In this document: piece by piece, positions 8,944 to 40,999 of the stretch
Layout of the letters: every line of letters begins with the position of its first letter
How positions within the stretch are numbered: position 1 is the stretch's first letter
Source: Nitratireductor sp. ZSWI3
GTDB lineage: Bacteria; Pseudomonadota; Alphaproteobacteria; Rhizobiales; Rhizobiaceae
Assembly (NCBI RefSeq): GCF_024655565.1
Contig: NZ_JANKOF010000018.1
Span: forward strand, 1 to 63,297
Direction of reading: 5' to 3'
DNA: 63,297 nt
Made by a program: the position numbers and the translations under genes
The notes under the pieces: model-generated
What the model was told of the DNA's origin: nothing
Seen by the model: the letters and a program-made list of their open reading frames with translations, nothing else
Databases searched by the model: none

Positions 8944-10149
8944 CTACACCCGCTCCATCGCCAGCGCGATGCCCTGGCCGACGCCGATGCACATCGTCGC
9001 CAGCGCCAGCCTGCCGCCGCGCTCGGACAGTTCGAGTGCCGCGGTGCCACAGATGCGGGCGCCGGACATGCCGAGCGGATGACCGAGCGCGATGGCACCG
9101 CCATTGGGATTCACATGCGCTGCATCCTCGGCAATGCCGAGCTCACGCAGCACCGCGATGCCCTGCGCGGCAAAGGCCTCGTTCAATTCGATGACGTCGA
9201 AATCCGCCGGCTTCAGGCCGAGCCGGGCGCAAAGCTTCCGCGTCGCCGGCGCCGGGCCGATGCCCATGATGCGCGGCGCAACGCCCGCCGTCGCGCCGCC
9301 GAGGATGCGGGCGATGGGGGTGAGCCCATATTTCTTCGCCGCCGCCTCCGAAGCGATGATCAGGGCCGCCGCGCCATCGTTGACGCCGGAAGCGTTGCCG
9401 GCCGTCACTGTGCCGCCCTCGCGGAACGGCGTCGGCAGCCTGGCCAGGGATTCGACCGTGGTGCCGGGGCGCGGATGCTCGTCCTTGTCGACCACGACCG
9501 GATCGCCCTTGCGCTGCGGGATGGTGACCGGCACGATCTCCTTGGCGAGCCGCCCGCTCTCCTGGGCGGCAACGGCCTTGTTTTGGCTGCGTACGGCGAA
9601 GGCGTCCTGATCGGCACGGCCGACGGAGAACTCTTCCGCCACGTTCTCGCCCGTCTCGGGCATCGAATCGATGCCGTACTGCTTCTTCAGCACCCGGTTG
9701 ACGAAACGCCAGCCGATGGTGGTGTCGTAAATCTCCGCATTGCGCGAGAAGGCGGTCTCGGCCTTCGGCATGACGAAGGGCGCGCGGCTCATGGATTCGA
9801 TGCCGCCCGCGATCATGATCTCCGCCTCGCCCGCCTTGATGGCACGCGCGGCGATGGTGACGGCATCCATGCCGGAACCGCACAACCGGTTGACCGTCGA
9901 GCCCGGCACGTCGATCGGAAGCCCCGCCAGGAGCACGGCCATGCGGGCGACGTTGCGGTTGTCCTCGCCCGCCTGGTTGGCGCAGCCATAAAAGACGTCG
10001 TCGAGCGCCGCCCAGTCCACCTTCGGGTTGCGCTCGACGAGCGCCTTTATAGGCGCCGCCGCCAGATCGTCGGCCCGGACCGAGGACAACACGCCGCCGA
10101 AGCGGCCGATGGGCGTGCGGATGTAATCGCAGATGAAGGCTTCAGCCAT
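8944..10149 (-). CDS. pcaF: 3-Oxoadipyl-CoA thiolase
   Basis: 401 aa, the usual thiolase length. Cleaves beta-ketoadipyl-CoA into succinyl-CoA and acetyl-CoA. Nucleophilic Cys in [11 protein letters not shown] (about residue 90), the C-terminal His in [17 protein letters not shown] and the second Cys in [11 protein letters not shown] are all present. The N terminus [19 protein letters not shown] and the segment [15 protein letters not shown] are characteristic of PcaF rather than of acetyl-CoA acetyltransferase. Follows pcaI and pcaJ in one leftward operon controlled by the divergent IclR gene. No other pca gene is in the window. Confidence 0.95.
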
Positions 10150-27558: not shown

Positions 27559-28638
27559 ATGCTGTTCCAACGCCCCGACGACGACCATCTCTATCAGGCG
27601 CTGATCGCCCGCGACGCGGCCCTCGACGGCTTCGTCTATGCGGGCGTGACGACCACCGGCATCTTTTGCCGCATCACCTGCCCGGCCCGCAAGCCGAGGC
27701 GCGAGAACGTCGTCTTCTACGACACGGTCGCGCAATGTTTCGAGGCGGGTCTGAGGCCATGCAAGCGCTGCCGGCCCCTGGCCCGCGCCGGCGAGGCCGA
27801 TCCGCTCGTCGGCGACCTCCTCGCGCGGCTGGAGGCGGAACCCGAAAGACGCTGGTCGGAGACGGATGTTGTCCGGCTGGGTCACGACCCCTCGACCGTG
27901 CGCCGCGCCTTCAAGCGACGCTTCGGCCTCAGCTTCCTGGAGATGGCGCGGCTGCGGCGCGTCGGCCAGGCGGTGGAGAACCTTGCCGGCGGCGCCAGCG
28001 TGATCGAGGCGCAGCAGGAGGCGGGCTTTGCCTCCGGCAGTGGCTTTCGCAATGCGGTGACACGGCTTCTCGGCGAAGCGCCCGCCGGCATGCGTCGCCG
28101 CCCGCTGCTGTTGGCCGACTGGATCGAGACGCCGATCGGCGCAATGGTCGCGGTCGCCGACGGCCACGCGCTGCACCTCCTCGAATTTCTCGAACGCACG
28201 GCCCTGCCGGCCGAGATCCGCAAGCTGCAAAAAGCGACCGGCTCGGCGATCGCCATGGGGCGCAACGCGCCCATCGGACAGATCGCCGCCGAGCTCGACG
28301 CCTATTTCGCCGGCCGCTCGGCCCGCTTCGAGACGCGGCTCGCCGGCCACGGAACGCCCTTCGAGCGCGACGTCTGGCGTGCCTTGCGGAAGATCCCGCC
28401 GGGCGCGGCGCGCAGTTATTCGCAGCTTGCCGCAGAGCTCGACCGCCCGGATGCCACGCGTGCCGTGGCGCGGGCCAACGGAACCAACCAGATCGCCATC
28501 GTCATCCCCTGCCACCGGGTGCTCGCCGCTGATGGCGGCCTGACCGGATATGGCGGCGGTCTGTGGCGCAAGCGATGGCTGCTCGAACATGAAAGAGTGA
28601 TGTTTTCAGGAACCGGAGGACACCATGAGCCAGAGTGA
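27559..28638 (+). CDS. ada: Ada: methylphosphotriester sensor and O6-methylguanine methyltransferase
   Basis: 359 aa, full Ada architecture. Metal-binding N-Ada domain (about 1-80) with the methyl-acceptor Cys region FCRITCPARKP and the CKRCRP pair, an AraC-type DNA-binding domain (about 85-185), and the C-terminal methyltransferase (about 190-355) with IPCHRVLAADGGLTGYGGG. Self-methylation activates the adaptive response to alkylation. ATG at 27559; an in-frame TTG at 27541 is less likely. Its last 14 bases overlap the next gene. Confidence 0.95.
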   Translation: MLFQRPDDDHLYQALIARDAALDGFVYAGVTTTGIFCRITCPARKPRRENVVFYDTVAQCFEAGLRPCKRCRPLARAGEADPLVGDLLARLEAEPERRWSETDVVRLGHDPSTVRRAFKRRFGLSFLEMARLRRVGQAVENLAGGASVIEAQQEAGFASGSGFRNAVTRLLGEAPAGMRRRPLLLADWIETPIGAMVAVADGHALHLLEFLERTALPAEIRKLQKATGSAIAMGRNAPIGQIAAELDAYFAGRSARFETRLAGHGTPFERDVWRALRKIPPGAARSYSQLAAELDRPDATRAVARANGTNQIAIVIPCHRVLAADGGLTGYGGGLWRKRWLLEHERVMFSGTGGHHEPE

Positions 28639-29389
28639 CAAAACCCACGCCTTCGCCGCCCTGCACGTCAAGGGCGACCCGCTGATCCTCTACAATGTCT
28701 GGGATGCGGGTTCGGCAAAGGCCGTCGCCGGGGGCGGCGCGAAGGCGCTCGCCACCGGAAGCTGGTCGGTCGCCGCCGCCCATGGCTATGGCGACGGCGA
28801 GAAGATACCGCTCGCCGTGCTCACCGCCGTCGCGGAGCGCATCGCGCAAACGGTGGACCTGCCGCTCTCCGTGGATTTCGAGGGCGCTTACGCGACCGAA
28901 TCGCAACAAGCCGCCGAAAACGTTGCCCGCCTGCTCGACGCTGGCGCGATCGGCATCAATTTCGAGGACCAGATCGTCGGCGGAGACGGATTGCACGCTA
29001 TTGCCGACCAGGCGGCGCGCATCGCCGCCATCCGGGCCATGGCCGAAAGGAAGGGCGTGGCGCTTTTCATCAACGCGCGGACCGACCTCTTCCTCAAGGA
29101 AAGCGACCGCAGCCGGCACGCGGCGCTGCTGGCCGAGGCGAAGGAACGCGCGCGAGCCTATGAGGAGGCCGGCGCCAGCGGCTTCTTCGCGCCAGCGCTG
29201 GTCGATGAGGGACTGATCGGCGAGCTTTGCGACGCGACAGCGCTGCCGGTCAACATCATGGCCATGAAGGATGCACCGGACGCCGGCCGTCTCGGCGCGC
29301 TGGGCGTGGCGCGGATCAGCCACGGTCCCGGCCCCTACCGGGCGGCGATGGCCCGCCTGCAGGAAGCCGCGGCGGCGATCTACGGGTAG
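28625..29389 (+). CDS. PEP mutase / isocitrate lyase family protein
   Basis: 254 aa. TIM-barrel enzyme of the PEP-mutase/methylisocitrate-lyase superfamily: LYNVWDAGSAKAVAGGGAKA, LSVDFEGAYA with the Mg-binding acidic residues, GAIGINFEDQI, FINARTDLFL and RISHGPGPYR. The canonical lyase KKCGH loop is not present, so it is probably a lyase or phosphonate-type enzyme of unknown substrate. It overlaps ada by 14 bases and starts after GGAACCGGAGGAC; coexpression with ada may be incidental. Confidence 0.82.
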   Translation: MSQSDKTHAFAALHVKGDPLILYNVWDAGSAKAVAGGGAKALATGSWSVAAAHGYGDGEKIPLAVLTAVAERIAQTVDLPLSVDFEGAYATESQQAAENVARLLDAGAIGINFEDQIVGGDGLHAIADQAARIAAIRAMAERKGVALFINARTDLFLKESDRSRHAALLAEAKERARAYEEAGASGFFAPALVDEGLIGELCDATALPVNIMAMKDAPDAGRLGALGVARISHGPGPYRAAMARLQEAAAAIYG

Positions 29390-29409: not shown

Positions 29410-30258
29410 TCAGCCGGCAGCGGGCTTGTTCCAGTGGATGTGCTCCAGCGCCTGGATGCGGCTGCGCGAGGCATCCCAGTTCCTGTGGGTGACCCGGTCG
29501 ATGATGGCTTCCGCCAGCGCGATGAGCGCCACACTGGAATCCCAGGTGCGGCCCGCATCGATGGCGCAGGGCAGGACCACCTTCGCATAGCGCGAGATGG
29601 GTGACAGCCAGCTGTCGGTGATGAGCACGATGCGCGCCCTGCGCTCGCCGAGCAGTTCACTCAGATGAACGAGATCGCGCTGGTAGCGGCGGATGTCGAA
29701 CAGCACCACCACATCGCCCGCCCGGATGTCGAGCAACTGGTCGTCCCAGGTGGAGGTCTGGTCCTGGAAGCGGCGCACATTGGGCCGCACGATGCGCAAA
29801 TGCGCCGCCATGTAGCGCGCGACGGCATCGCTGAAGCGCCCGCCGAGCAGGTAGCAGGCCGCCTTGTGATCGGACAGGAGCAGGCAGGCGGCCTCGAACT
29901 CGCTCTCCGGGATGGCGCCCAGCGTCGCGGCGAGATTGGCCTCGGCGCGGGCGAAATACGCCCCGAGCGCCGACCCGTCGGCACTGCGCGCCGAGGAGGT
30001 TTCGCCCTTTTCGAGCGGCGAGAGAAGCTCGGCCTGGATCTCCGTCCTCAGCGCCCGCTGAAACTCGGGATAGCCGGAATAGCCAAGGCGCGAGACGAAG
30101 CGCAAGACGGTGGGAGCGCTCGTGCCGGCACGGTCGGCGAATTCGGCCACCGTCGACAGGCCGCTGCTCGGATAGTTGGCAAGGAAGGCATGCGCGACCT
30201 TCCGCTCCGCGTCGGTCATGTGACCGAGCGCTTCGTGCACCTGTTCCTTGGTTCCCAA
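29410..30258 (-). CDS. RpiR/MurR-family regulator of the TRAP operon
   Basis: 282 aa. N-terminal RpiR helix-turn-helix (about 1-75: LSTVAEFADRAGTSAPTVLRFVSRLGYSGYPEFQ) and C-terminal SIS sugar-isomerase-fold sensor (about 115-250; CYLLGGRFSDAVARYMA, RIVLITDSWLSPISRYA). The SIS domain usually binds a phosphosugar, but members near catabolic operons also sense amines and acids. Divergent from the amidohydrolase-TRAP operon; two 14-bp GTAAT-type sites in the gap are probable binding sites. Confidence 0.88.
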   Translation of the reverse strand: MGTKEQVHEALGHMTDAERKVAHAFLANYPSSGLSTVAEFADRAGTSAPTVLRFVSRLGYSGYPEFQRALRTEIQAELLSPLEKGETSSARSADGSALGAYFARAEANLAATLGAIPESEFEAACLLLSDHKAACYLLGGRFSDAVARYMAAHLRIVRPNVRRFQDQTSTWDDQLLDIRAGDVVVLFDIRRYQRDLVHLSELLGERRARIVLITDSWLSPISRYAKVVLPCAIDAGRTWDSSVALIALAEAIIDRVTHRNWDASRSRIQALEHIHWNKPAAG

Positions 30259-30296
30259 ACGAGACTCCCCATTGGCGGACGGCTGCGGACCGCTTC

Positions 30297-30310
30297 GTAA
30301 TAAAAATTAC
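30297..30310. promoter_or_regulatory. Candidate RpiR operator 1
   Basis: GTAAT-AAAA-ATTAC perfect palindrome, 38 bases after the RpiR start codon on the divergent side. The shape recalls known RpiR/HexR sites (GTAAT arms with an A/T centre). Confidence 0.65.
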
Positions 30311-30314
30311 ACGA

Positions 30315-30348
30315 TTGACAAAAGTGTCGCAATGCTAATCAATATTAC
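30315..30348 (+). promoter_or_regulatory. TTGACA promoter element and candidate RpiR operator 2
   Basis: A consensus -35 TTGACA lies at 30315-30320. CTAAT-CAAT-ATTAC at 30335-30348 repeats the first site with a C for the leading G and lies where the -10 region should be. The sites start 38 bases apart, flanking the -35, an arrangement suited to repression of the amidohydrolase-TRAP operon. Confidence 0.55.
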
Positions 30349-30375
30349 AAACGACGCCGCAAGGGGAACGGTCCG

Positions 30376-31233
30376 GTGGAACTCGGACACACGGCGACCA
30401 AAGGGGCTTGCGAGGAGATCTTCCTGGTGGCGAAGGCATTGCTCGAACCGTCTGAGGGTTCACCTGTCGCGATCGAGCGGCGGGAGGGGCGCTCGCCGGT
30501 CGTGCTCGTCTGCGAACACGCCTCCAGGACGATCCCGCTGGCGCTCGGCACGCTCGGCGCCGAACCCGAGACGCTGGACAGCCATGCGGCCTGGGACATC
30601 GGCGCACTGGCCGTCGCCCGCGGACTTTCCGAACGCCTCGACGCGCCGCTCGTCTTCCAGCGCTTCTCGCGCCTCGTCTATGACTGCAACCGGCCACCCG
30701 AAGCGCCGGATGCCATCCCGGAGACAAGCGAGATCCATCGGGTTCCGGGCAATCGCAACCTCGATGCCGCGATGCGGCAGCAACGCGCCGACGCGCTTTA
30801 TCATCCATTTCACGCCGCCATAGGCGCCCTCATCGAAACGCGACTTGCCGCCGGCAGCCGCCCGGTGCTGGTGACGGTCCATTCCTTCACGCCGGTCTAT
30901 TTCGGCAAGATGCGCGAGGGCGGCCTCGGCATATTGCACGACGCCGACCGGGAGCTGGGCGATGCAATGCTGGCGGCGGCCGAAGAGATCGGCCTTGCCG
31001 GCGTGCGGCGCAACTATCCCTATGGCCCCGCCGATGGAGTGACGCACACGCTGAAGCGCCACGGGCTCGCCCGCGGCATCCCTAACGTGATGCTCGAGAT
31101 CCGCAACGACCTGATTTCCGGACCGCAGGGCCAGGCGGAATGGGCCGATCGCGTCGCCGGTCTCCTGGCCCGCGCCCTGCCCCTTTTCGAGAAGGAGGAC
31201 GCCGGCATGCCTCAGAAGGAGCCGAAAGCATGA
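30376..31233 (+). CDS. N-formylglutamate amidohydrolase family enzyme
   Basis: 285 aa. Zinc-dependent amidohydrolase of the N-formylglutamate deformylase family (HutG2 type): VVLVCEHASRTIP, HAAWDIGA, DCNRPPEAP, the HSFTP motif in LVTVHSFTPVYFG and NVMLEIRNDLI. No hut gene is near, so histidine catabolism is unlikely. It is the first gene of an operon with TRAP transporter, GS-like ligase and two dehydrogenases and overlaps dctQ by ATGA, so it probably cleaves an acyl- or glutamyl-amide of the imported amine. GTG start at 30376 after AAGGGGAAC. Confidence 0.85.
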   Translation: MELGHTATKGACEEIFLVAKALLEPSEGSPVAIERREGRSPVVLVCEHASRTIPLALGTLGAEPETLDSHAAWDIGALAVARGLSERLDAPLVFQRFSRLVYDCNRPPEAPDAIPETSEIHRVPGNRNLDAAMRQQRADALYHPFHAAIGALIETRLAAGSRPVLVTVHSFTPVYFGKMREGGLGILHDADRELGDAMLAAAEEIGLAGVRRNYPYGPADGVTHTLKRHGLARGIPNVMLEIRNDLISGPQGQAEWADRVAGLLARALPLFEKEDAGMPQKEPKA

Positions 31234-31757
31234 AGGCTCTCGCCGCCTATGTCCGCATCGTCGACCGCTTCAACCGGCGGATCGGGCGTTTCGCGATGTA
31301 TCTGATCTTCGCCATGATGGGGGTGCTCCTGTGGTCGTCGATCTCGAAGTTTGCCGGCTCGCCCGCCCTGTGGACGCTGGAGATGGCGCAGTTCATCATG
31401 GTCGGCTACTACATACTGGGCGGGCCCTATTCGATGCAGCTCGGCGACCATGTGCGCATGGATCTCCTCTATTCGGGCTGGTCGCACCGGCGCAAATCGG
31501 CCGTCGACGCGATCACCGTCCTGTTCCTGATCTTCTACCTCTTCATCCTTCTCTACGGTGGTGTCTCGAGCACGACCTACGCCCTCGAATTCGGCGAGCG
31601 CGCCCATTCGGTCTGGCGGCCCTACATGTGGCCCGTCAAGCTGGTCGCCACAACCGGGATCCTGCTCATGCTGATGCAGGCCCTGGCCGAGCTTTTCCGA
31701 GACGTTCTTTATCTGCGCGGCATCAATGTCGACCACCCGCATGAGGCAGGCCTGTGA
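31230..31757 (+). CDS. TRAP transporter small permease (DctQ)
   Basis: 175 aa, four predicted membrane helices, first FAMYLIFAMMGVLLWSSI. GPYSMQLGDHVRMDLLYSGW is the conserved DctQ loop. Works with the large permease and the binding protein that follow. ATG at 31230 overlaps the amidohydrolase stop; the stop overlaps the GTG of the large permease. Confidence 0.9.
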   Translation: MKALAAYVRIVDRFNRRIGRFAMYLIFAMMGVLLWSSISKFAGSPALWTLEMAQFIMVGYYILGGPYSMQLGDHVRMDLLYSGWSHRRKSAVDAITVLFLIFYLFILLYGGVSSTTYALEFGERAHSVWRPYMWPVKLVATTGILLMLMQALAELFRDVLYLRGINVDHPHEAGL

Positions 31758-33088
31758 GCTACGAGCTGATCGCATTGTTCATGTTCGCCTCGATGATGGC
31801 GCTGCTGATCACCGGGCAGCGCGTTTTCGGCGTCATCGGCGCAGTGGCCGTGCTGGCGGCGCTGCCGCTGTGGGGCACCGGCGGCGTGGAGATCGCCTTC
31901 GCCCAGTCGATCAAGCTGATGAAATGGTATCCGCTGCTGACGCTGCCGATGTTCATCTTCATGGGCTACATGCTGTCGGAAAGCCGGATCGCCGACGATC
32001 TCTACCGCATGTTCCATGTCTGGTTCGGCCCCGTGCCCGGCGGCCTGGCGATCGGCACCATCGGCCTGATGGTCGTCATCTCCGCGATGAACGGGCTGTC
32101 GGTGGCCGGCATGGCCATCGGCGCGACGATTGCCCTGCCCGAGCTCCTGCGGCGCGGCTACGACAAGCAGATGATCACCGGCGTCGTCCAGGGCGGATCG
32201 AGCCTCGGCATCCTGATCCCGCCTTCGGTCGTGCTCGTGCTCTACGGCATGATCGCCCGCCAGCCGGTCAGCCAGCTCTGGCTTGCCGGCGCGATGCCGG
32301 GTTTCCTGATGGCGGGCCTGTTCGTCGCCTACATCGCCATCCGCTGCTATTTCCAACCGCATCTCGGGCCGGCGCTGACGCGCGAGGAGCGCGCCGCCAT
32401 CACCTGGGGCGAGCGGATTGCCCTTCTGCGCGCGGGCATCCTGCCCTTCATGATCTTCTTCTTCATGAACGGCCTGTTCCTGATGGGCGTCACCAGCCTC
32501 GTGGAAAGCTCTGCTGTGGGTGCGCTGTCCGCCATGGCGGCGGCCATCATCAAAGGACGCCTGACGCGCGAGGTCTTCGAGAACACGGTCCGCAAGACGC
32601 TCGGCATCTCCTGCATGTTCATGTGGATCATCCTCGCCGCCCTGTGCTTCGGTGCCGTCTTCGACGGGCTGGGCGCCGTCAAGGCGATCGAGGGCTTTTT
32701 TCTCGACCGCCTCGGCCTCGATCGCTGGCAGGTGCTCATCCTGATGCAGCTCAGCTTCCTGCTGATGGGCACCTTCCTCGACGACACGGCGATGCTGGTC
32801 ATCGTGGCGCCGCTTTACGTGCCGCTGGTCAAGGCGCTCGAGTTCGATCTGGTCTGGTACGGCGTTCTCTACACGATCACCTGCCAGATCGCGTATATGA
32901 CGCCACCCTTCGGCTACAACCTGTTCCTGATGCGCGCCATGGCGCCACCCGACATCCGGCTGCGCGACATCTACCTTTCGGTCATTCCGTTTGTCTTTGT
33001 GATGATCATCACTCTCATCATCGTGATGGTGTACCCGCAGCTCGCACTGTGGCTCCCGGGCCAGTTCCAGGGGAAGCTTCAAGGCTGA
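31754..33088 (+). CDS. TRAP transporter large permease (DctM)
   Basis: 444 aa, about twelve predicted helices, usual length. Recognisable DctM segments: LPMFIFMGYMLSESRIADDLYRM, GGSSLGILIPPSVVLVLYG, LMGTFLDDTAMLVIVAPLY and MTPPFGYNLFLMRAMAP. GTG start overlapping the small-permease stop. Sodium-driven uptake of the substrate delivered by the binding protein. Confidence 0.94.
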   Translation: MSYELIALFMFASMMALLITGQRVFGVIGAVAVLAALPLWGTGGVEIAFAQSIKLMKWYPLLTLPMFIFMGYMLSESRIADDLYRMFHVWFGPVPGGLAIGTIGLMVVISAMNGLSVAGMAIGATIALPELLRRGYDKQMITGVVQGGSSLGILIPPSVVLVLYGMIARQPVSQLWLAGAMPGFLMAGLFVAYIAIRCYFQPHLGPALTREERAAITWGERIALLRAGILPFMIFFFMNGLFLMGVTSLVESSAVGALSAMAAAIIKGRLTREVFENTVRKTLGISCMFMWIILAALCFGAVFDGLGAVKAIEGFFLDRLGLDRWQVLILMQLSFLLMGTFLDDTAMLVIVAPLYVPLVKALEFDLVWYGVLYTITCQIAYMTPPFGYNLFLMRAMAPPDIRLRDIYLSVIPFVFVMIITLIIVMVYPQLALWLPGQFQGKLQG

Positions 33089-33130
33089 AGCCAATGAAAA
33101 CGAAGAAAACCACCAGAGAAGGAGAGCAGC

Positions 33131-34177
33131 ATGTTTAGCAGACGACAATTCCTCACCAAGGCCGGGGCCGCCGGCGCGGCAGCCGGAACCGCATTGGCCG
33201 CTCCTCCCGTCATCGCGCAGGAGCCGATCCGCTGGCGCATGCAGACCTATGCCGGCGCCACGCTCGGGCAGTTCGTCACCCAGCCCTTCGTCGATGCCTT
33301 CAACAAGGCGGCGAACGGCGAGATGGTGATCGAGCTGTTCTTCGCCGATCAGATCGTTCCGACCGGCGAGCTCTTCCGCGCCATGCAGGCGGGAACCATC
33401 GACGCCGTGCATTCCGACGACGATTCCATGGCCGCTCCCGTAGAGATCAGCATTTTCGGCGGCTATTTCCCGTTCGCGACGCGCTCCATCGTCGACGTGC
33501 CGGTGCTTTTCACGCAATACGGGCTCGCCGACATCTGGCGCGATGCCTATGCCAAGGCCGGCGGCGTCGTATGGCTGTCGGCTGCCGGGCAGGATCCGTG
33601 CAACTTCAACACCAAGAAGGAGATCAAGAGCCTTGCCGACCTGTCGGGCCTCAAGCTCTACACCTTCCCGACCGCCGGACGCTTCCTCACCCAGTTCGGC
33701 GTGGTGCCGGTCTCGATCCCCTACGAGGATGCCGAAGTGGCCGTCCAGACCGGCGAACTCGACGGCATGGCCTGGTCGGGCATCACCGAGGATTATACGG
33801 TGGGCTGGGCCAACGTGACCGACTACTTCCTCACCAATAACATCTCCGGCGCCTGGATCGGCTCCTGGTTTGCCAATGAGAAGAAGTGGGCGGACCTGCC
33901 TGACCACCTGAAGCAGATCTACATGTCCTGCATGGAGGCAAGCCACACCTTCCGCAACCAGTGGTACTGGGGCGGCGAGGCCAAGCTGCGGGCCACCGGA
34001 GACAAACTCAAGCTGCGCTCCGTTCCCGCGGCGGAATGGAAGCAGGTCGAGGATGCGGCGGTGAAGTTCTGGGAGGAGATCGCCGCCGAGAGCGAAACCA
34101 AGGCGAAGGTGATCGAGATCTTCAAGCAGTACAACGGCGTCATCAACAACGCCGGCTTCCCGTACAGCCAGACCTGA
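33131..34177 (+). CDS. TRAP transporter substrate-binding protein (DctP family)
   Basis: 348 aa with a twin-arginine-type signal (SRRQFLTKAGAAGAAAG, cleavage likely after PPVIAQ). Mature part begins EPIRWRMQTYAGATLGQF and keeps the DctP block GLKLYTFPTAGRFLTQFG, where the second conserved residue region that binds a substrate carboxylate usually sits. The TakP/mannitol-type family binds acids; an amino acid or acid derivative is therefore as likely as an amine. Followed by a short stem-loop. Confidence 0.9.
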   Translation: MFSRRQFLTKAGAAGAAAGTALAAPPVIAQEPIRWRMQTYAGATLGQFVTQPFVDAFNKAANGEMVIELFFADQIVPTGELFRAMQAGTIDAVHSDDDSMAAPVEISIFGGYFPFATRSIVDVPVLFTQYGLADIWRDAYAKAGGVVWLSAAGQDPCNFNTKKEIKSLADLSGLKLYTFPTAGRFLTQFGVVPVSIPYEDAEVAVQTGELDGMAWSGITEDYTVGWANVTDYFLTNNISGAWIGSWFANEKKWADLPDHLKQIYMSCMEASHTFRNQWYWGGEAKLRATGDKLKLRSVPAAEWKQVEDAAVKFWEEIAAESETKAKVIEIFKQYNGVINNAGFPYSQT

Positions 34178-34195
34178 TCCCGCAACCGACGACCA

Positions 34196-34225
34196 CGCCG
34201 CCCCGGCCACAGGCTGCGGGCGGCG
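34196..34225 (+). terminator. Stem-loop between the binding-protein and ligase genes
   Basis: CGCCGCCC (34196-34203) and GGGCGGCG (34218-34225) with a 14-base loop. No T-run. A likely mRNA-stabilising structure separating transporter from enzyme genes. Confidence 0.5.
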
Positions 34226-34254
34226 CCTGAACAACTTTTCCAGGATCCCCTTTC

Positions 34255-35622
34255 ATGGCCGGACACCTTTCCATTCAAGATCTCGAGACGGCCGCAAGCC
34301 GCGGTGAGATCGACACCGTTCTGGTGGCGCTGGTCGACATGCAGGGCCGCCTGATGGGCAAGCGCTTCCATGTCGATTTCTTCCTCGAAAGCGCCTTCGA
34401 GGAAACGCACAGCTGCAACTATCTGCTCGCCACCGACCTCGAGATGTATACGGTCGAAGGCTACAAGGCGACCAGTTGGGAAGCCGGCTACGGCGACTAC
34501 ACGATGAAGCCCGACCTGTCGACGCTGCGCCGCGTGCCGTGGCTGGAAGGGACCGCGCTGGTGCTTTGCGACGTGCTCGACCACCACACGCACGCCGAGG
34601 TGCCGCATTCGCCGCGCGCCGTCCTGAAGAAGCAGATCGCCCGGCTGGAAGCGATGGGCATGAAGGCCATGATGGCCTCCGAGCTGGAATTCTTCCTGTT
34701 CCGCGACTCCTTCGAGGAAGTCCACGCCAAGGGCTATCGCGGGCTGGAGCGCATCAGCGCCTACAACGAGGACTACCACATCTTCCAGACCACCAAGGAG
34801 GAGGATGTGATGCGCGCCATCCGCAACGGGCTGAACGGCGCCGACATCCCGGTCGAGAACTCCAAGGGCGAGGCCGATGCCGGCCAGGAGGAGATCAACG
34901 TCCGCTATGCCGACGCGCTGACCATGGCCGACCGGCACGCCATCATCAAGAACGGCTGCAAGGAGATCGCCTGGCAGAAGGGCCGCGCCGTCAGCTTCAT
35001 GGCGAAATGGGACAACCAGGCCGCCGGCAGTTCCTCCCACGTCCATCAGTCGCTCTGGTCGGCCGACGGCAAGCCGCTGTTCTTCGATACCGCCGGCGAG
35101 CACGGCATGTCGCAAACCATGCGCCATTACCTCGCCGGGCTTCTGACCCATGCCGGCGAGATCACCTATTTCCTCGCCCCCTATATCAACTCCTACAAGC
35201 GCTTTGCCGCCGGCACCTTCGCGCCGACCAAGGCCATCTGGTCGTTCGACAACCGCACAGCGGGCTACCGCGTGTGCGGCGCCGACACGAAGGCGGTGCG
35301 CGTGGAATGCCGCGTCGGCGGGGCCGACCTCAACCCTCATCTTGCCTTCGCGGCGTTGATCGCCGCCGGGCTCGATGGCATCGAAAACAAGAGAGAGCTC
35401 GAGCCGGCCTTCACCGGCGACGCGTATCATGAAACGGGAATCCGCGAGATCCCGTCCACGCTGCGCGACGCCGCCGCCGCCCTCGACGGCTCGCAAATGC
35501 TGCGCAAGGCCTTCGGTGATGCGGTGGTCGATCACTATGTCCACGCGGCCCGTTGGGAACAGACCGAATATGACCGCCGCGTCACCGACTGGGAGCTGAG
35601 GCGCGGCTTCGAGAGAGCATGA
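34255..35622 (+). CDS. Glutamine-synthetase-like gamma-glutamyl-amine ligase
   Basis: 455 aa. GS-family (type III GlnA/PuuA-like): N-terminal beta-Grasp (about 15-110) and catalytic domain with ASELEFFLF, AGQEEINVRYADAL, GSSSHVHQSLW, YINSYKRFAAGTFAP, RTAGYRV and VECRVGGADLNPHLAFAAL. Ammonia-site residues differ enough, and the adenylylation Tyr segment of GlnA is absent, so gamma-glutamylation of an amine is the likely reaction. Its neighbours, two dehydrogenases and an amidohydrolase, supply the further steps. ATG at 34255 after CCAGGATCCCC. Confidence 0.87.
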   Translation: MAGHLSIQDLETAASRGEIDTVLVALVDMQGRLMGKRFHVDFFLESAFEETHSCNYLLATDLEMYTVEGYKATSWEAGYGDYTMKPDLSTLRRVPWLEGTALVLCDVLDHHTHAEVPHSPRAVLKKQIARLEAMGMKAMMASELEFFLFRDSFEEVHAKGYRGLERISAYNEDYHIFQTTKEEDVMRAIRNGLNGADIPVENSKGEADAGQEEINVRYADALTMADRHAIIKNGCKEIAWQKGRAVSFMAKWDNQAAGSSSHVHQSLWSADGKPLFFDTAGEHGMSQTMRHYLAGLLTHAGEITYFLAPYINSYKRFAAGTFAPTKAIWSFDNRTAGYRVCGADTKAVRVECRVGGADLNPHLAFAALIAAGLDGIENKRELEPAFTGDAYHETGIREIPSTLRDAAAALDGSQMLRKAFGDAVVDHYVHAARWEQTEYDRRVTDWELRRGFERA

Positions 35623-35623
35623 G

Positions 35624-37012
35624 ATGACAAAGACTTTGCAATGTATTTCCCCCATCGACGGCTCGGTCTATGCCGAGCGTCCCGTCATGGATCCGGACAA
35701 GGCGGCCGCCCTGCTGGGGCGTGCGAGGCACGCCCAGAAGGCCTGGGCCAGACGCCCGCTCGACGAGCGCATCGCGCTGGTCAACGCCGGCGTCGCGCGC
35801 CTCAACGAGATGGCCGACGAGGTGGTGCCGGAGCTTGCCCACATGATGGGCCGGCCGGTGCGCTATGGCGGCGAGTTCGGCGGCATGAACGAGCGCTCAG
35901 CCTATATGGCCGGGATCGCCGCGCGCGCCCTCGCCCCCATCGTGATCGAGGATTCGGAGACCTTCGACCGGCACATCCAGCGCCAGCCGCATGGCGTGGT
36001 CGGCGTCATCGCGCCGTGGAACTATCCCTATATGACGGCGATGAACACCATCGTGCCCGGCCTGATCGCCGGCAATGCGGTGGCCGTCAAGCACGCCACC
36101 CAGACGCTGCTCGTCGGCGAGCGCATCGTGCGCGCCTTCCATGAGGCGGGCATTCCGGAAGAGCTGTTCGTCAACCTGTTCCTCGACCATCAGGGCACCG
36201 AGGCCCTGATCGGCGCGCGCGCCTTCGACTTCGTCAACTTCACCGGTTCCGTCGGTGGCGGTCGGGCCATCGAGCGGGCCGCCGCCGGCACCTTCACCGG
36301 CCTCGGGCTGGAGCTCGGCGGCAAGGACCCCGGCTATGTCATGGAGGACGCCGACCTCGACTGGGCGGTCGATGTGCTGATGGACGGTGCGATGTACAAT
36401 GCCGGCCAGTGCTGCTGCGGCATCGAGCGCATCTATGTGGCCGCGCCGCTGTTCGACGCCTTCGTCGAGAAGTCCGTCGACTGGGTGTCGAAGCTGAAGC
36501 TCGGCAACCCGCTGTCGCAGGAAACCACGATCGGGCCGATGGCCAACCGGCGCTTTGCCGACATGGTGCGCTCGCAGACCGGGGATGCCGTCGCGCAAGG
36601 GGCGAGGCCGCTGGTCGATCCGAAACTGTTTCCTGAGGACGACGGCGGCACCTATCTGATGCCGCAGATCCTGGTCGACGTGAACCACCAGATGCGTGTG
36701 ATGCGCGAGGAGACCTTTGGTCCCCTGGTCGGCATCATGCCGGTCAAGGACGATGCCGAGGCTCTGACCCTGATGAACGACTGCGAGTTCGGCCTCACCG
36801 CCTCGCTGTGGACCGCCGATCCCGAGCGCGCGGCGCGTCTCGGCGCCGAGATCGAGACCGGCACCGTGTTCATGAACCGCGCCGACTATCTCGACCCTGC
36901 CCTCTGCTGGACCGGCTGCAAGAACACCGGCCGCGGCGGCGCGCTGTCGGAGATCGGCTACCACAACCTGACCCGTCCGAAATCCTATCACCTCAGGAAG
37001 AAGCAAGCATGA
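35624..37012 (+). CDS. NAD(P)+ aldehyde dehydrogenase of the ligase cluster
   Basis: 462 aa. Oxidises an aldehyde to acid. ALDH fold: IAPWNYPYMTAMNTIVPG, LELGGKDPGYV with the general-base Glu, nucleophile Cys in NAGQCCCGIERIYVA, and C-terminal EETFGPLVGIMPV. Length slightly short of the usual 480-500. Two bases after the ligase stop; overlaps the alcohol dehydrogenase by ATGA. Expected to receive the aldehyde formed by the next enzyme. Confidence 0.93.
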   Translation: MTKTLQCISPIDGSVYAERPVMDPDKAAALLGRARHAQKAWARRPLDERIALVNAGVARLNEMADEVVPELAHMMGRPVRYGGEFGGMNERSAYMAGIAARALAPIVIEDSETFDRHIQRQPHGVVGVIAPWNYPYMTAMNTIVPGLIAGNAVAVKHATQTLLVGERIVRAFHEAGIPEELFVNLFLDHQGTEALIGARAFDFVNFTGSVGGGRAIERAAAGTFTGLGLELGGKDPGYVMEDADLDWAVDVLMDGAMYNAGQCCCGIERIYVAAPLFDAFVEKSVDWVSKLKLGNPLSQETTIGPMANRRFADMVRSQTGDAVAQGARPLVDPKLFPEDDGGTYLMPQILVDVNHQMRVMREETFGPLVGIMPVKDDAEALTLMNDCEFGLTASLWTADPERAARLGAEIETGTVFMNRADYLDPALCWTGCKNTGRGGALSEIGYHNLTRPKSYHLRKKQA

Positions 37013-38154
37013 CACTCGTCGCCAACTGGTCCTACCCGACATCGATCCGCTTCGGCGCCGGACGCATCAAGGAGCTGGCGGAAGCCTGCAGGGCCGCCGG
37101 CATCGAACGACCCCTGCTCGTCACCGACCGCGGCCTGGCCGGCATGGAGATCACCGCGACCGCGCTCGACGTGCTGGAGGCGGCGGGCCTCGGCCGCGCC
37201 ATGTTCTCCGATGTCGACCCGAACCCGAACGAGAACAACCTCAAAGCCGGCATCAGGACGTTCAAGGACGGCGGCCATGACGGCGTCGTCGCCTTTGGCG
37301 GCGGCTCCGGCCTCGACCTCGGCAAGCTCGTCGCCTTCATGGCCGGCCAGAGCCGGCCCGTGTGGGACTTCGAGGACATCGGCGACTGGTGGACCCGCGC
37401 CGATGCCGCCAGGATCGCCCCCAACGTCGCCGTGCCGACGACCGCCGGCACCGGCTCGGAGGTGGGCCGCGCCGGCGTCCTGACCAATTCGGCGACGCAT
37501 GTGAAGAAGATCATCTTCCATCCGAAGATCCTGCCCTCCGTGGTGATCTGCGATCCCGAGCTGACGGTCGGCATGCCCAGGGCGATCACCGCCGGCACCG
37601 GCATGGACGCCTTCGCCCACTGCCTGGAGGCCTATTCCTCGCCCTTCTACCATCCGATGAGCCAGGGCATCGCGCTCGAGGGCATGCGGCTGGTGAAGGC
37701 ATATCTGCCGCGCGCCTATGCGGACGGGGCGGACATCGAGGCTCGCGCCCAGATGATGAGCGCAGCCGCCATGGGCGCCGTCGCCTTCCAGAAAGGGCTC
37801 GGCGCCATCCACGCCCTGTCGCACCCGGTCGGAGCGCTCTACAACACCCATCACGGCACGACCAACGCCGTGGTGATGCCGCCGGTGCTGAGGCTCAACC
37901 GGCCGGCGATCGAGGATCGCATCGCCGCCGCCGCCGCCTATCTCGGCATTTCCGGCGGCTTCGACGGCTTCTACGATTTCGTCATCGGCCTGCGCGCCGA
38001 GCTCGGCATCCCCGACAAGCTCTCGGCGCTCGGCGTCGGCACCGACCGCATCGACGAGATGGTGGCAATGGCGCTGGAAGATCCAAGCGCCGGAGGCAAC
38101 CCGGTCAAGATGACGGCGGAGAATACGAAGGCGTTGTTTGAGGCGTGTATTTGA
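37009..38154 (+). CDS. Iron-containing alcohol dehydrogenase
   Basis: 381 aa, group III metal-dependent alcohol dehydrogenase. NAD-binding FGGGSGLDLGKLVAFM and TTAGTGSEVGRAGVLT; iron ligands in GTGMDAFAHCLEAYSSPFYHP and ALSHPVGALYNTHHGTTNAVVMP. Likely oxidises the primary alcohol function of the glutamylated or free substrate. Last gene of the operon, followed by a RIME-like repeat. Confidence 0.93.
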   Translation: MTLVANWSYPTSIRFGAGRIKELAEACRAAGIERPLLVTDRGLAGMEITATALDVLEAAGLGRAMFSDVDPNPNENNLKAGIRTFKDGGHDGVVAFGGGSGLDLGKLVAFMAGQSRPVWDFEDIGDWWTRADAARIAPNVAVPTTAGTGSEVGRAGVLTNSATHVKKIIFHPKILPSVVICDPELTVGMPRAITAGTGMDAFAHCLEAYSSPFYHPMSQGIALEGMRLVKAYLPRAYADGADIEARAQMMSAAAMGAVAFQKGLGAIHALSHPVGALYNTHHGTTNAVVMPPVLRLNRPAIEDRIAAAAAYLGISGGFDGFYDFVIGLRAELGIPDKLSALGVGTDRIDEMVAMALEDPSAGGNPVKMTAENTKALFEACI

Positions 38155-38320: not shown

Positions 38321-40999
38321 CTACAACGCCAGCGACACCGTGATCACCCCCGCCTCGCTGCCGCCTTCCTTGACCTCGAAGCCGAACTCCCGGCACATGT
38401 TCAGCATCTTCGTGTTGTCGGACAGAACGATGCCCTCGATGGCGCCGATGCCTTCCGCCTTGCCGTAATCGATGAGCTGCTTCAGCAGCGCGAAGCCGAG
38501 GCCGTGGCCCTGCAGGTCGGTGCGCACCAGAAGGCCGTATTCGGCCACCTCCTTGTCCGGATCGGACGACAGGCGGCCGATGCCCGCCATCTCGCCGTCC
38601 TCGGCCCGGAGCGCGATGAAAGCCATGTCGCGCTCGTAGTCGAGCTGGGTCAGCCGCAGCAGCATCTCGTCCGGGAAATGCTTGCGCGGCGCGAGGAAGC
38701 GGAAGCGGATGTCCTCCGGTGAGACGCGGGCGAGAAAATCCGGGAACAGGGCCACATCCGCCGGCTTGATGGGCCGCAGATGATAGGGATGGCCTTCGAG
38801 GTCGACGTCCTTCTCCCAGCCGTCTGGATAGGGCCTGATGGCGATGTCCGGGTTCGGCCCCTTGCGATCGATCTGCGAAGGCTCGATCTCGAGGCGCGCG
38901 TCGAGCGCCACGACGCCCTCGCTGTCGGCGATCAGCGGATTGATGTCCATGCCCTTGATGCAGGGGAAATCGACGATCATCTGCGACATGGCGTTGAGCG
39001 CCCCGATAATCGCCTCGCGATCGGCCGGCGCGCGGTCGCGATAGCCGGCGAGCAGCTTGCCGATGCGCGTCGAGGCCAGAAGATCGCCGGCCAGCACGTC
39101 GTCGAGCGGCGGCAGGGCGATGGCCGTGTCGTCGACCACCTCGACCGAGGTGCCGCCGGCGCCGAACAGCACCACCGGGCCGAAGACGGGATCCTGGCTG
39201 ACGCCGAGGATCAGCTCATGCGCATGCTTGCGCGAGACCATCGGCTGCACGACGAACCCTTCGAGCGCCGCTTCGGAGCCCGCCTCCTGCAGGCGCCGCA
39301 CGATCGCTTCGGCAGCAGCCGTGGCCGCTTCCGGCGTCTTCAGATCGAGCGCCACGCCGCCCACATCCGATTTGTGGCTGATCGTCTTCGACAGCAGTTT
39401 GACGACCACGCGGGCCGACGTTTCGAGGAGCTTTCCGGCGGCCCCGCCGACAGCCTGCGGCGTCTCGACCACGACAGTCTCCGGCACCGGAATGCCGTAG
39501 GCGGCGATCGCCGCCTTCGCCTCGGGCTCGGTCAGCATGCGCCGCCCCTCGGCGGCCGCCTGGCGCAGAATCGACGCCAGCGCCTCGCGATCGCCCCGCA
39601 CATCCTCGCTGCGGCTGGACGGCACACGGGTCAGCGCCTTCTGCGCCCGCGACCACTCGCCGAGATAGGAGAGCGCCGCGGTGGCGCTCGACGGCGTGCT
39701 GAAATTCGCAATGCCGGCATCCTGCAGGATGCGTCGCCCCTCGCGCGCTTTCTCCTCGCCCAGCCAGCAGGTGATCAGCGGCTTGCCATTGACCTTGCCG
39801 CGATCGGCCAGGGCGGCGACCGCCCGCGCCGCATCCGAGGGCGAGGCAAGGCCGGTCGGACAGTTGAACACCAGAACCGCATCCGTGTTCTGGTCGTCGG
39901 CGACCGCCAGGACGGCCTCGCTGTAGCGTTCCGCCGGCGCGTCGCCGATGATGTCGGCCGGATTGGCGTGCGACCAGTTGGGCGGCAGCGCGCGGTCGAG
40001 CCGCTCCAGCGTGTGCGGTGTGAATTCGGCCAGCGCACCGTTGAGGTCTATCAGCCGGTCGACGGCGAGCACCCCGGCACCGCCGCCATTGCTGACGATG
40101 CCCACCTGCGAGCGCTGCAGCGGCGCGAAGCGGGCGAGGATCTCGGCCGCATCGAACAGCTCGCCGAGATCGATGACGCGCAGGATGCCGGCACGCCGCA
40201 GCGCCGCCTCCACCACGCGATCGGCGCCCGACAGCGCCCCGGTGTGCGTGGCCGCCGCCTTGGCCGCCTCGGCATGCCGGCCGGCCTTGATGGCGATGAC
40301 CGGCTTGAGACGCGCCGCCGCGCGCGCCGCGGTCATGAATTTGCGCGGGCTGGGGACGGTCTCCAGATACATCAGGATGCCGCGCGTCCGGCCGTCGCCG
40401 GCGAGCATCTCCAGATAATCGCCGACATCGACGTCGGCCATGTCACCGAGCGAGACGATGTGCGAGAAGCCTATCCCCTCCGCCGCCGCCCAATCGACGA
40501 GAGAGGTGGCGATGGCGCCGGATTGGGAAAGCAGGGCCAGCCCGCCGGATTTCGGCTGCATATGGGCGAAGCTGGCATTGAACTTCATCGGCGGCACCAT
40601 CAGCCCGACCGTGTTCGGCCCGATGATGCGGAAGAGATACGGCTTGGCGGCGTCGAGCATCGCCTGCCGCAGGCCGTTCTCGCGCGTCAGCCCGGCGGTG
40701 ATGACCACCGCGGCGCGCGTTCCCTTCTTGCCGAGTTCGCCGATAAGGCCCGGCACGGCTTGCGGCGGCGTGAGGATGACGGCGAGGTCCGGCACGGCGG
40801 GAATGTCGCGTACCCTGCGATAGCAACGCCGGCCGGCGACCTCGGTGTATTTCGGATTGACCGGCCAGATCTCCCCCTCGAAGCCTCCGACGAGGAGATT
40901 CTGCATGACGATTTGGCCCACCGCGCCCGGCCGGTTGGACGCGCCGAGCACGGCGACCGAGGTCGGGCGGGCGGCGAACTCGAGATTGCGGATCGTCAT
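38321..40999 (-). CDS. Pat-type protein lysine acetyltransferase (NDP-acyl-CoA-synthetase-like + GNAT)
   Basis: 892 aa. N-terminal CoA-binding and succinyl-CoA-ligase-like domains (about 1-460; SVAVLGASNRPGAVGQIV, GRHAEAAKAAATHTGALSGAD), an ATP-grasp domain (about 480-700; TEPEAKAAIAAYGIPVPET, VVVKLLSKTISHKSDVGGV) and a C-terminal GNAT domain (about 730-890; GLLVRTDLQGHGLGFALLKQLIDYGKAEGI). This order is that of PatZ/Pka, which acetylates acetyl-CoA synthetase and other central enzymes with acyl-CoA. Convergent with the alcohol dehydrogenase operon. Whether the ligase part is active cannot be told here; the His of THTGALSG is retained. Confidence 0.93.
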   Translation of the reverse strand: MTIRNLEFAARPTSVAVLGASNRPGAVGQIVMQNLLVGGFEGEIWPVNPKYTEVAGRRCYRRVRDIPAVPDLAVILTPPQAVPGLIGELGKKGTRAAVVITAGLTRENGLRQAMLDAAKPYLFRIIGPNTVGLMVPPMKFNASFAHMQPKSGGLALLSQSGAIATSLVDWAAAEGIGFSHIVSLGDMADVDVGDYLEMLAGDGRTRGILMYLETVPSPRKFMTAARAAARLKPVIAIKAGRHAEAAKAAATHTGALSGADRVVEAALRRAGILRVIDLGELFDAAEILARFAPLQRSQVGIVSNGGGAGVLAVDRLIDLNGALAEFTPHTLERLDRALPPNWSHANPADIIGDAPAERYSEAVLAVADDQNTDAVLVFNCPTGLASPSDAARAVAALADRGKVNGKPLITCWLGEEKAREGRRILQDAGIANFSTPSSATAALSYLGEWSRAQKALTRVPSSRSEDVRGDREALASILRQAAAEGRRMLTEPEAKAAIAAYGIPVPETVVVETPQAVGGAAGKLLETSARVVVKLLSKTISHKSDVGGVALDLKTPEAATAAAEAIVRRLQEAGSEAALEGFVVQPMVSRKHAHELILGVSQDPVFGPVVLFGAGGTSVEVVDDTAIALPPLDDVLAGDLLASTRIGKLLAGYRDRAPADREAIIGALNAMSQMIVDFPCIKGMDINPLIADSEGVVALDARLEIEPSQIDRKGPNPDIAIRPYPDGWEKDVDLEGHPYHLRPIKPADVALFPDFLARVSPEDIRFRFLAPRKHFPDEMLLRLTQLDYERDMAFIALRAEDGEMAGIGRLSSDPDKEVAEYGLLVRTDLQGHGLGFALLKQLIDYGKAEGIGAIEGIVLSDNTKMLNMCREFGFEVKEGGSEAGVITVSLAL

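Follow-up and report, generated by a model that had tools for sequence, protein, structure and literature searches.

What does this stretch of DNA encode around the preliminary description's putative operon? The window, by which we mean the whole stretch of 63,297 nucleotides analysed from Nitratireductor sp. ZSWI3, carries eight open reading frames at 29410-38154 (ORF list and Pfam scan). A divergent rpiR is followed by seven collinear genes on the plus strand. Together with two upstream elements, these are:

29410..30258, minus strand: RpiR-family regulator (HTH_6 + SIS), divergent; Pfam HTH_6 50.6 bits, SIS 70.8 bits
30297..30310, no strand assigned: inverted repeat GTAATAAAAATTAC, arms GTAAT-N4-ATTAC; candidate RpiR operator, function inferred
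30315..30349, plus strand: candidate promoter; TTGACA at 30315-30320, TAATCA-A/T-TATTACA at 30336-30349
30376..31233, plus strand, GTG start: FGase-family amidohydrolase, probable gamma-glutamylglycine amidohydrolase (GGAH); PF05013, 149 bits
31230..31757, plus strand: TRAP small permease DctQ (EtoV); PF04290, 69 bits; position that of EtoV in PMC10132767
31754..33088, plus strand: TRAP large permease DctM (EtoW); PF06808, 216 bits
33131..34177, plus strand: TRAP ethanolamine-binding protein DctP (EtoX), predicted by homology; Pfam DctP, 80 bits; best PDB match 4uab/4xf5
34255..35622, plus strand: GS-like ligase, probable ethanolamine gamma-glutamylase (gamma-glutamylethanolamide synthetase); PF00120 (Gln-synt_C), 341 bits
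35624..37012, plus strand: ALDH, probable gamma-glutamylacetaldehyde-amide dehydrogenase; PF00171 (Aldedh), 367 bits; position that of MED193_10051 (PMC10132767)
37009..38154, plus strand: Fe-ADH, probable gamma-glutamylethanolamide dehydrogenase; PF00465, 155 bits, and PF25137, 140 bits; position that of MED193_10056 (PMC10132767)

All Pfam matches of the eight proteins lie above the curated cut-offs. The DctQ and Fe-ADH frames open further upstream in the mechanical ORF list (at 31140 and 36808); we prefer the internal ATGs at 31230 and 37009. With these starts, neighbouring genes are joined by three 4-base overlaps or separated by gaps of 1, 42 and 77 bases. The preliminary description had read an FGase, a complete TRAP importer, a GS-like ligase, an ALDH and an Fe-ADH as one set of seven genes, and this reading holds: the genes are intact, on the plus strand, overlapping or close, supported by Pfam and kept in order in relatives. 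The start it gave, 30297, belongs to no gene: the inverted repeat begins at this base. From the gene arrangement, GS-like ligase, Fe-ADH, ALDH and FGase-family hydrolase fall together in one predicted operon, in the order given in PMC10132767.

How far is this arrangement kept in relatives? The loci compared throughout are the best 80 of at least 594 confirmed relatives of the GS, and counts among them describe close relatives. Order and strand of all eight genes, RpiR-FGase-DctQ-DctM-DctP-GS-ALDH-FeADH, are kept in 22 of these 80, while 44 have RpiR-FGase-GS-ALDH-FeADH and a transporter other than TRAP in its slot; because of these two counts we do not attribute the arrangement to chance. The preliminary description had proposed looking for conservation as a block, and a block is what these 66 of the 80 loci carry. 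In the remaining 14 the set is incomplete, and several of these loci sit on a short contig or at the end of one. A divergent RpiR homologue stands at 67 of the 80. The GS-like ligase can occur apart from such an operon, since two loci (L011, 8001-9365, and L025, 5361-6725) encode a GS 80% and 78% identical to that of the window and have no partner genes in their long flanks. A GS match at E <= 1e-120, counted for the GS alone and irrespective of gene context, was found in 41 of 61 genomes of the family.

On either side of the set lies a further gene. A PEP-mutase-family gene (PF13714, 249 bits) at 28625-29389 adjoins the regulator, and a large minus-strand gene occupies 38321-40999, downstream of the Fe-ADH. 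We take the product of the latter to be an ADP-forming acyl-CoA synthetase with a C-terminal acetyltransferase-like part. Both were considered as operon members and rejected: their homologues occur in four of the 80 loci (L004-L007), all of them Nitratireductor. On this count, the two are neighbours of the operon and no more.

Which reactions might the enzymes catalyse? None of the operon enzymes exceeds a curated NCBIfam equivalog cut-off. The GS-like ligase scores 257.9 bits against a cut-off of 429.15 for GlnA (TIGR00653), 244 against 470 for GS type III, and 206.3 against 650 for gamma-glutamylputrescine synthetase (NF045547). Its best PDB matches are 5dm3 (E 3.5e-192) and 11zs (E 1.3e-188). 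The whole genome has three PF00120 matches and four FGase matches, one of each inside the window. The highest-scoring GS of the genome (L001) is presumed to be GlnA; the Asp of its DGSS motif, which we take to be the ammonium-site residue of GlnA, aligns with a Glu in the window ligase. This substitution and the TIGR00653 score led us to reject the ligase as an ordinary glutamine synthetase, and the NF045547 score to reject it as a PuuA-type enzyme.

The operon FGase was likewise rejected as HutG, the N-formylglutamate deformylase of the histidine pathway. It reaches 22.6 bits on a model with a cut-off of 278.75 (TIGR02017), while another FGase of the genome (L085) passes at 395 bits and is preceded by a reading frame that reads by eye as HutH. 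The sole PDB match of the operon FGase is 2odf (Atu2144; E 4.1e-84). For the Fe-ADH, the best among the scored NCBIfam models is 4-hydroxybutyrate dehydrogenase, at 355 of 500 bits, again under the cut-off. By family names alone, a GS-like enzyme beside an FGase could belong to a PuuA-type pathway for a polyamine or other amine, or to histidine breakdown through N-formylglutamate. Given the putrescine and HutG scores, a HutG over the cut-off elsewhere in the genome beside the HutH-like frame, and a binding protein nearest to the ethanolamine-bound structure 4uab, we consider either pathway extremely improbable. The Eut ethanolamine ammonia-lyase pathway was also rejected: EutB gave no match in the 99.99% complete genome, and the E. 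coli control was positive.

If the enzymes point away from these pathways, what does the importer carry? Searched against PDB chain sequences, DctP has one match that stands far above the rest, 4uab/4xf5 (E 1.3e-144, 485 bits); the runner-up stands at E 2.8e-18. Entry 4UAB shows Csal_0678, a protein of Chromohalobacter salexigens, in complex with ethanolamine, whose amine and hydroxyl are coordinated by Glu220 (PMC12410723). The aligned acidic platform residue of the window DctP, Glu220 of a GITEDY motif, is Glu in all 32 TRAP loci among the best 80; the Glu to which it aligns has chain index 217 in 4uab and corresponds to the published Glu220 only if the two numberings are offset by 3. Csal_0678 is described as being without the Arg typical of carboxylate-binding TRAP proteins (PMC4646407). 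Tyr177 of the window DctP aligns with an Arg of 4yzz, here taken as the equivalent of Arg-147 in PMC4646407; at this position, taken as the carboxylate-binding one, neither the window protein nor any of the 32 TRAP loci has Arg (Phe in 30, Tyr in 2). By alignment we place the window DctP in the Csal_0678/EtoX group, for which PMC10132767 used a threshold of e-60 by another method, against the E of 1.3e-144 for the window protein and 4uab. Ethanolamine has been called a surprising ligand for a TRAP protein (PMC5812351). The N-terminus of the window DctP has a twin-arginine-type signal (TAT_signal_seq 24.3 bits, cut-off 16.7), and an EtoX match was found in each of the 10 Nitratireductor genomes searched, the window's own included.

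The chemistry might nevertheless serve, unchanged, some other short amino alcohol, for instance 2-amino-1-propanol or serinol, with alanine or serine in place of glycine as the product. The 4uab sequence is shared with a second PDB entry, 4xf5, which we take to be the complex with (S)-2-amino-1-propanol. The window TRAP genes are, in addition, unlike those of near relatives, EtoX sharing 66-67% identity with its Nitratireductor pacificus counterpart, against 90% for the GS. The evidence from Phaeobacter sp. MED193 speaks for ethanolamine: its purified EtoX binds this ligand with a Kd of 7.9 ± 1.9 µM, and five of its proteins (10026, 10041, 10046, 10051 and 10056) are up on phosphorylethanolamine (PMC10132767). 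The same EtoX is also up without any phosphorus source, and the analogues that the accessible text of the paper names as tested on it include no other amino alcohols (PMC10132767).

What occupies the place of TRAP in the 44 loci that have none? In every one of these 44, among the best 80, the TRAP slot between FGase and GS holds a permease; by record name the loci are largely Rhizobium, Sinorhizobium/Ensifer, Neorhizobium and Agrobacterium. Thirty-six of the permeases resemble that of L019, for which the nearest model is TIGR00907 (206.8 of 598.3 bits), and eight resemble that of L069, nearest to TIGR00908, ethanolamine permease, and under its cut-off (360.6 of 381.75 bits). Four slot permeases (L019, L054, L032 and L069) were scanned against NCBIfam, and the other 40 were assigned by their tblastn likeness to L019 or L069. 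The L019-type permease does not itself point to ethanolamine. The ethanolamine-permease-like proteins that fill the slot in eight loci do tell against a preference for another amino alcohol, a preference that, with the MED193 data, we think very unlikely. Ethanolamine stays the most probable substrate.

The TRAP genes of the window have a history of their own. Trees were built for DctP and GS from 33 rows, the 32 DctP-bearing loci among the best 80 and the window. The window DctP groups with Nitratireductor luteus (support 100/100), and the GS with N. pacificus (98/89). Among the best 80 loci, N. pacificus (L004) is the nearer one for RpiR, FGase, GS, ALDH and Fe-ADH, and N. luteus (L008) the nearest for the TRAP genes at 31230-34177. 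Identities to N. luteus and N. pacificus are, respectively, 74% and 55% for DctQ, 83% and 79% for DctM (a small difference), and 36% and 90% for RpiR. The conflict between the two trees and the unequal identities therefore suggest that the TRAP genes were exchanged within the operon. A broader proposal would make the transporter an exchangeable cassette (TRAP, ethanolamine-permease-like or other APC-like permease) in an otherwise fixed operon, with TRAP here swapped by recombination for N. luteus-like genes, possibly with changed affinity or preference among amino alcohols; we find the case for and against it evenly balanced. That a single slot takes different transporters suggests a unit defined by its enzymes rather than by its importer.

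What might control the operon? The regulator likely to do so is the divergent RpiR, and an RpiR (MED193_10021) belongs to the published operon (PMC10132767). Upstream of the FGase gene, the arms GTAAT-N4-ATTAC (GTAATNNNNATTAC) recur in four of 68 intergenic regions, those of the window, L004, L005 and L006; in L007 one arm base is changed. Extended by the C before it to a 15-base pattern, the repeat matches once in its own genome at up to 1 mismatch, and the reversed-pattern control gives no match. This inverted repeat, conserved in Nitratireductor, offers a handle on what RpiR binds. An operator common to all loci was sought and rejected, the top word in a count of exact palindromes occurring in only six of the 68 regions. 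A loose TGAA...TTCA pattern is found in 56 of the 68, a count that has no control behind it and that we do not claim as an operator. The window and L004-L007 share the TTGACA and a conserved stretch that reaches 30349; a consensus promoter scan of the upstream region returned no sites, and the promoter at 30315-30349 is a candidate proposed from conservation only.

How would these parts work together? We consider it very probable that the operon is under RpiR control and serves the uptake of ethanolamine, which arises when cell membranes are broken down, and its catabolism through gamma-glutamylated intermediates. Because the enzymes fall below the GlnA, PuuA and HutG cut-offs and no EutB was found, ethanolamine is most likely the substrate, and glycine and glutamate the products. 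Periplasmic ethanolamine would be caught by EtoX (DctP) and imported by EtoV-EtoW (DctQM). The GS-like ligase would then join it to glutamate at the expense of ATP, giving gamma-glutamylethanolamide, the alcohol of which the Fe-ADH would oxidize to an aldehyde. From this aldehyde the ALDH would make gamma-glutamylglycine, and the FGase-family amidohydrolase would split it into glycine and glutamate, the latter to be recycled. The glutamyl cap, by blocking the amine, would keep free aminoacetaldehyde from forming. We infer by homology what the substrate is, which reaction each enzyme catalyses, what the cap is good for and what part RpiR plays. The chemistry of the preliminary description (an amino alcohol is imported, gamma-glutamylated, oxidized twice and hydrolysed to an amino acid) fits a published pathway (PMC10132767), and for the window the reactions stand as predictions.

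How does the operon compare with known systems? The PuuA-PuuD putrescine pathway works on the same principle: an amine is capped with glutamate, oxidized and freed of the cap by hydrolysis. It differs in its substrate, hydrolase family, oxidases and importer, and the window ligase lies under the cut-off of the PuuA-type model. For the GlnA4 ethanolamine pathway of Streptomyces coelicolor the steps proposed are those proposed here, through a gamma-glutamylethanolamide synthetase, two dehydrogenases and an FGase-family amidohydrolase; the later ones are given as predictions, and the accessible text names no TRAP importer (PMC6529630).

The pathway linked to Csal_0678 has a close binding protein (PMC12410723), the same four protein families, PF00120, PF00465, PF00171 and PF05013, tabulated for ethanolamine in C. 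salexigens (PMC9397018), and a putative glutamine synthetase, Csal0679, whose locus number adjoins that of Csal_0678 (PMC5299690). It differs in belonging to a gammaproteobacterium (PMC5812351). Citing Vetting et al. 2015, PMC10132767 states that related genes have been demonstrated both in C. salexigens and in A. tumefaciens C58; in PMC6529630, by contrast, the C. salexigens pathway counts as predicted in silico.

The closest counterpart is that of Phaeobacter sp. MED193, whose operon runs from RpiR (10021) through gamma-glutamylglycine amidohydrolase (GGAH, 10026), EtoV/EtoW/EtoX (10031-10041), ethanolamine gamma-glutamylase (ETAGA, 10046) and gamma-glutamylacetaldehyde-amide dehydrogenase (GAADDH, 10051) to gamma-glutamylethanolamide dehydrogenase (GETADH, 10056) (PMC10132767). 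Compared by locus tag, the set of eight genes and their order agree with those of the window, from RpiR to the last dehydrogenase. The organism is another, and the ethanolamine data are those of MED193, the window copy being known from its sequence. The preliminary description had supposed the unit to be undescribed; with eight genes in like order already published for MED193 (PMC10132767), that supposition falls. We conclude that the window operon is a copy of the already known glutamylation-type ethanolamine operon of the EtoVWX type, and that it adds a Nitratireductor-type copy to the known glutamylation route from ethanolamine to glycine.
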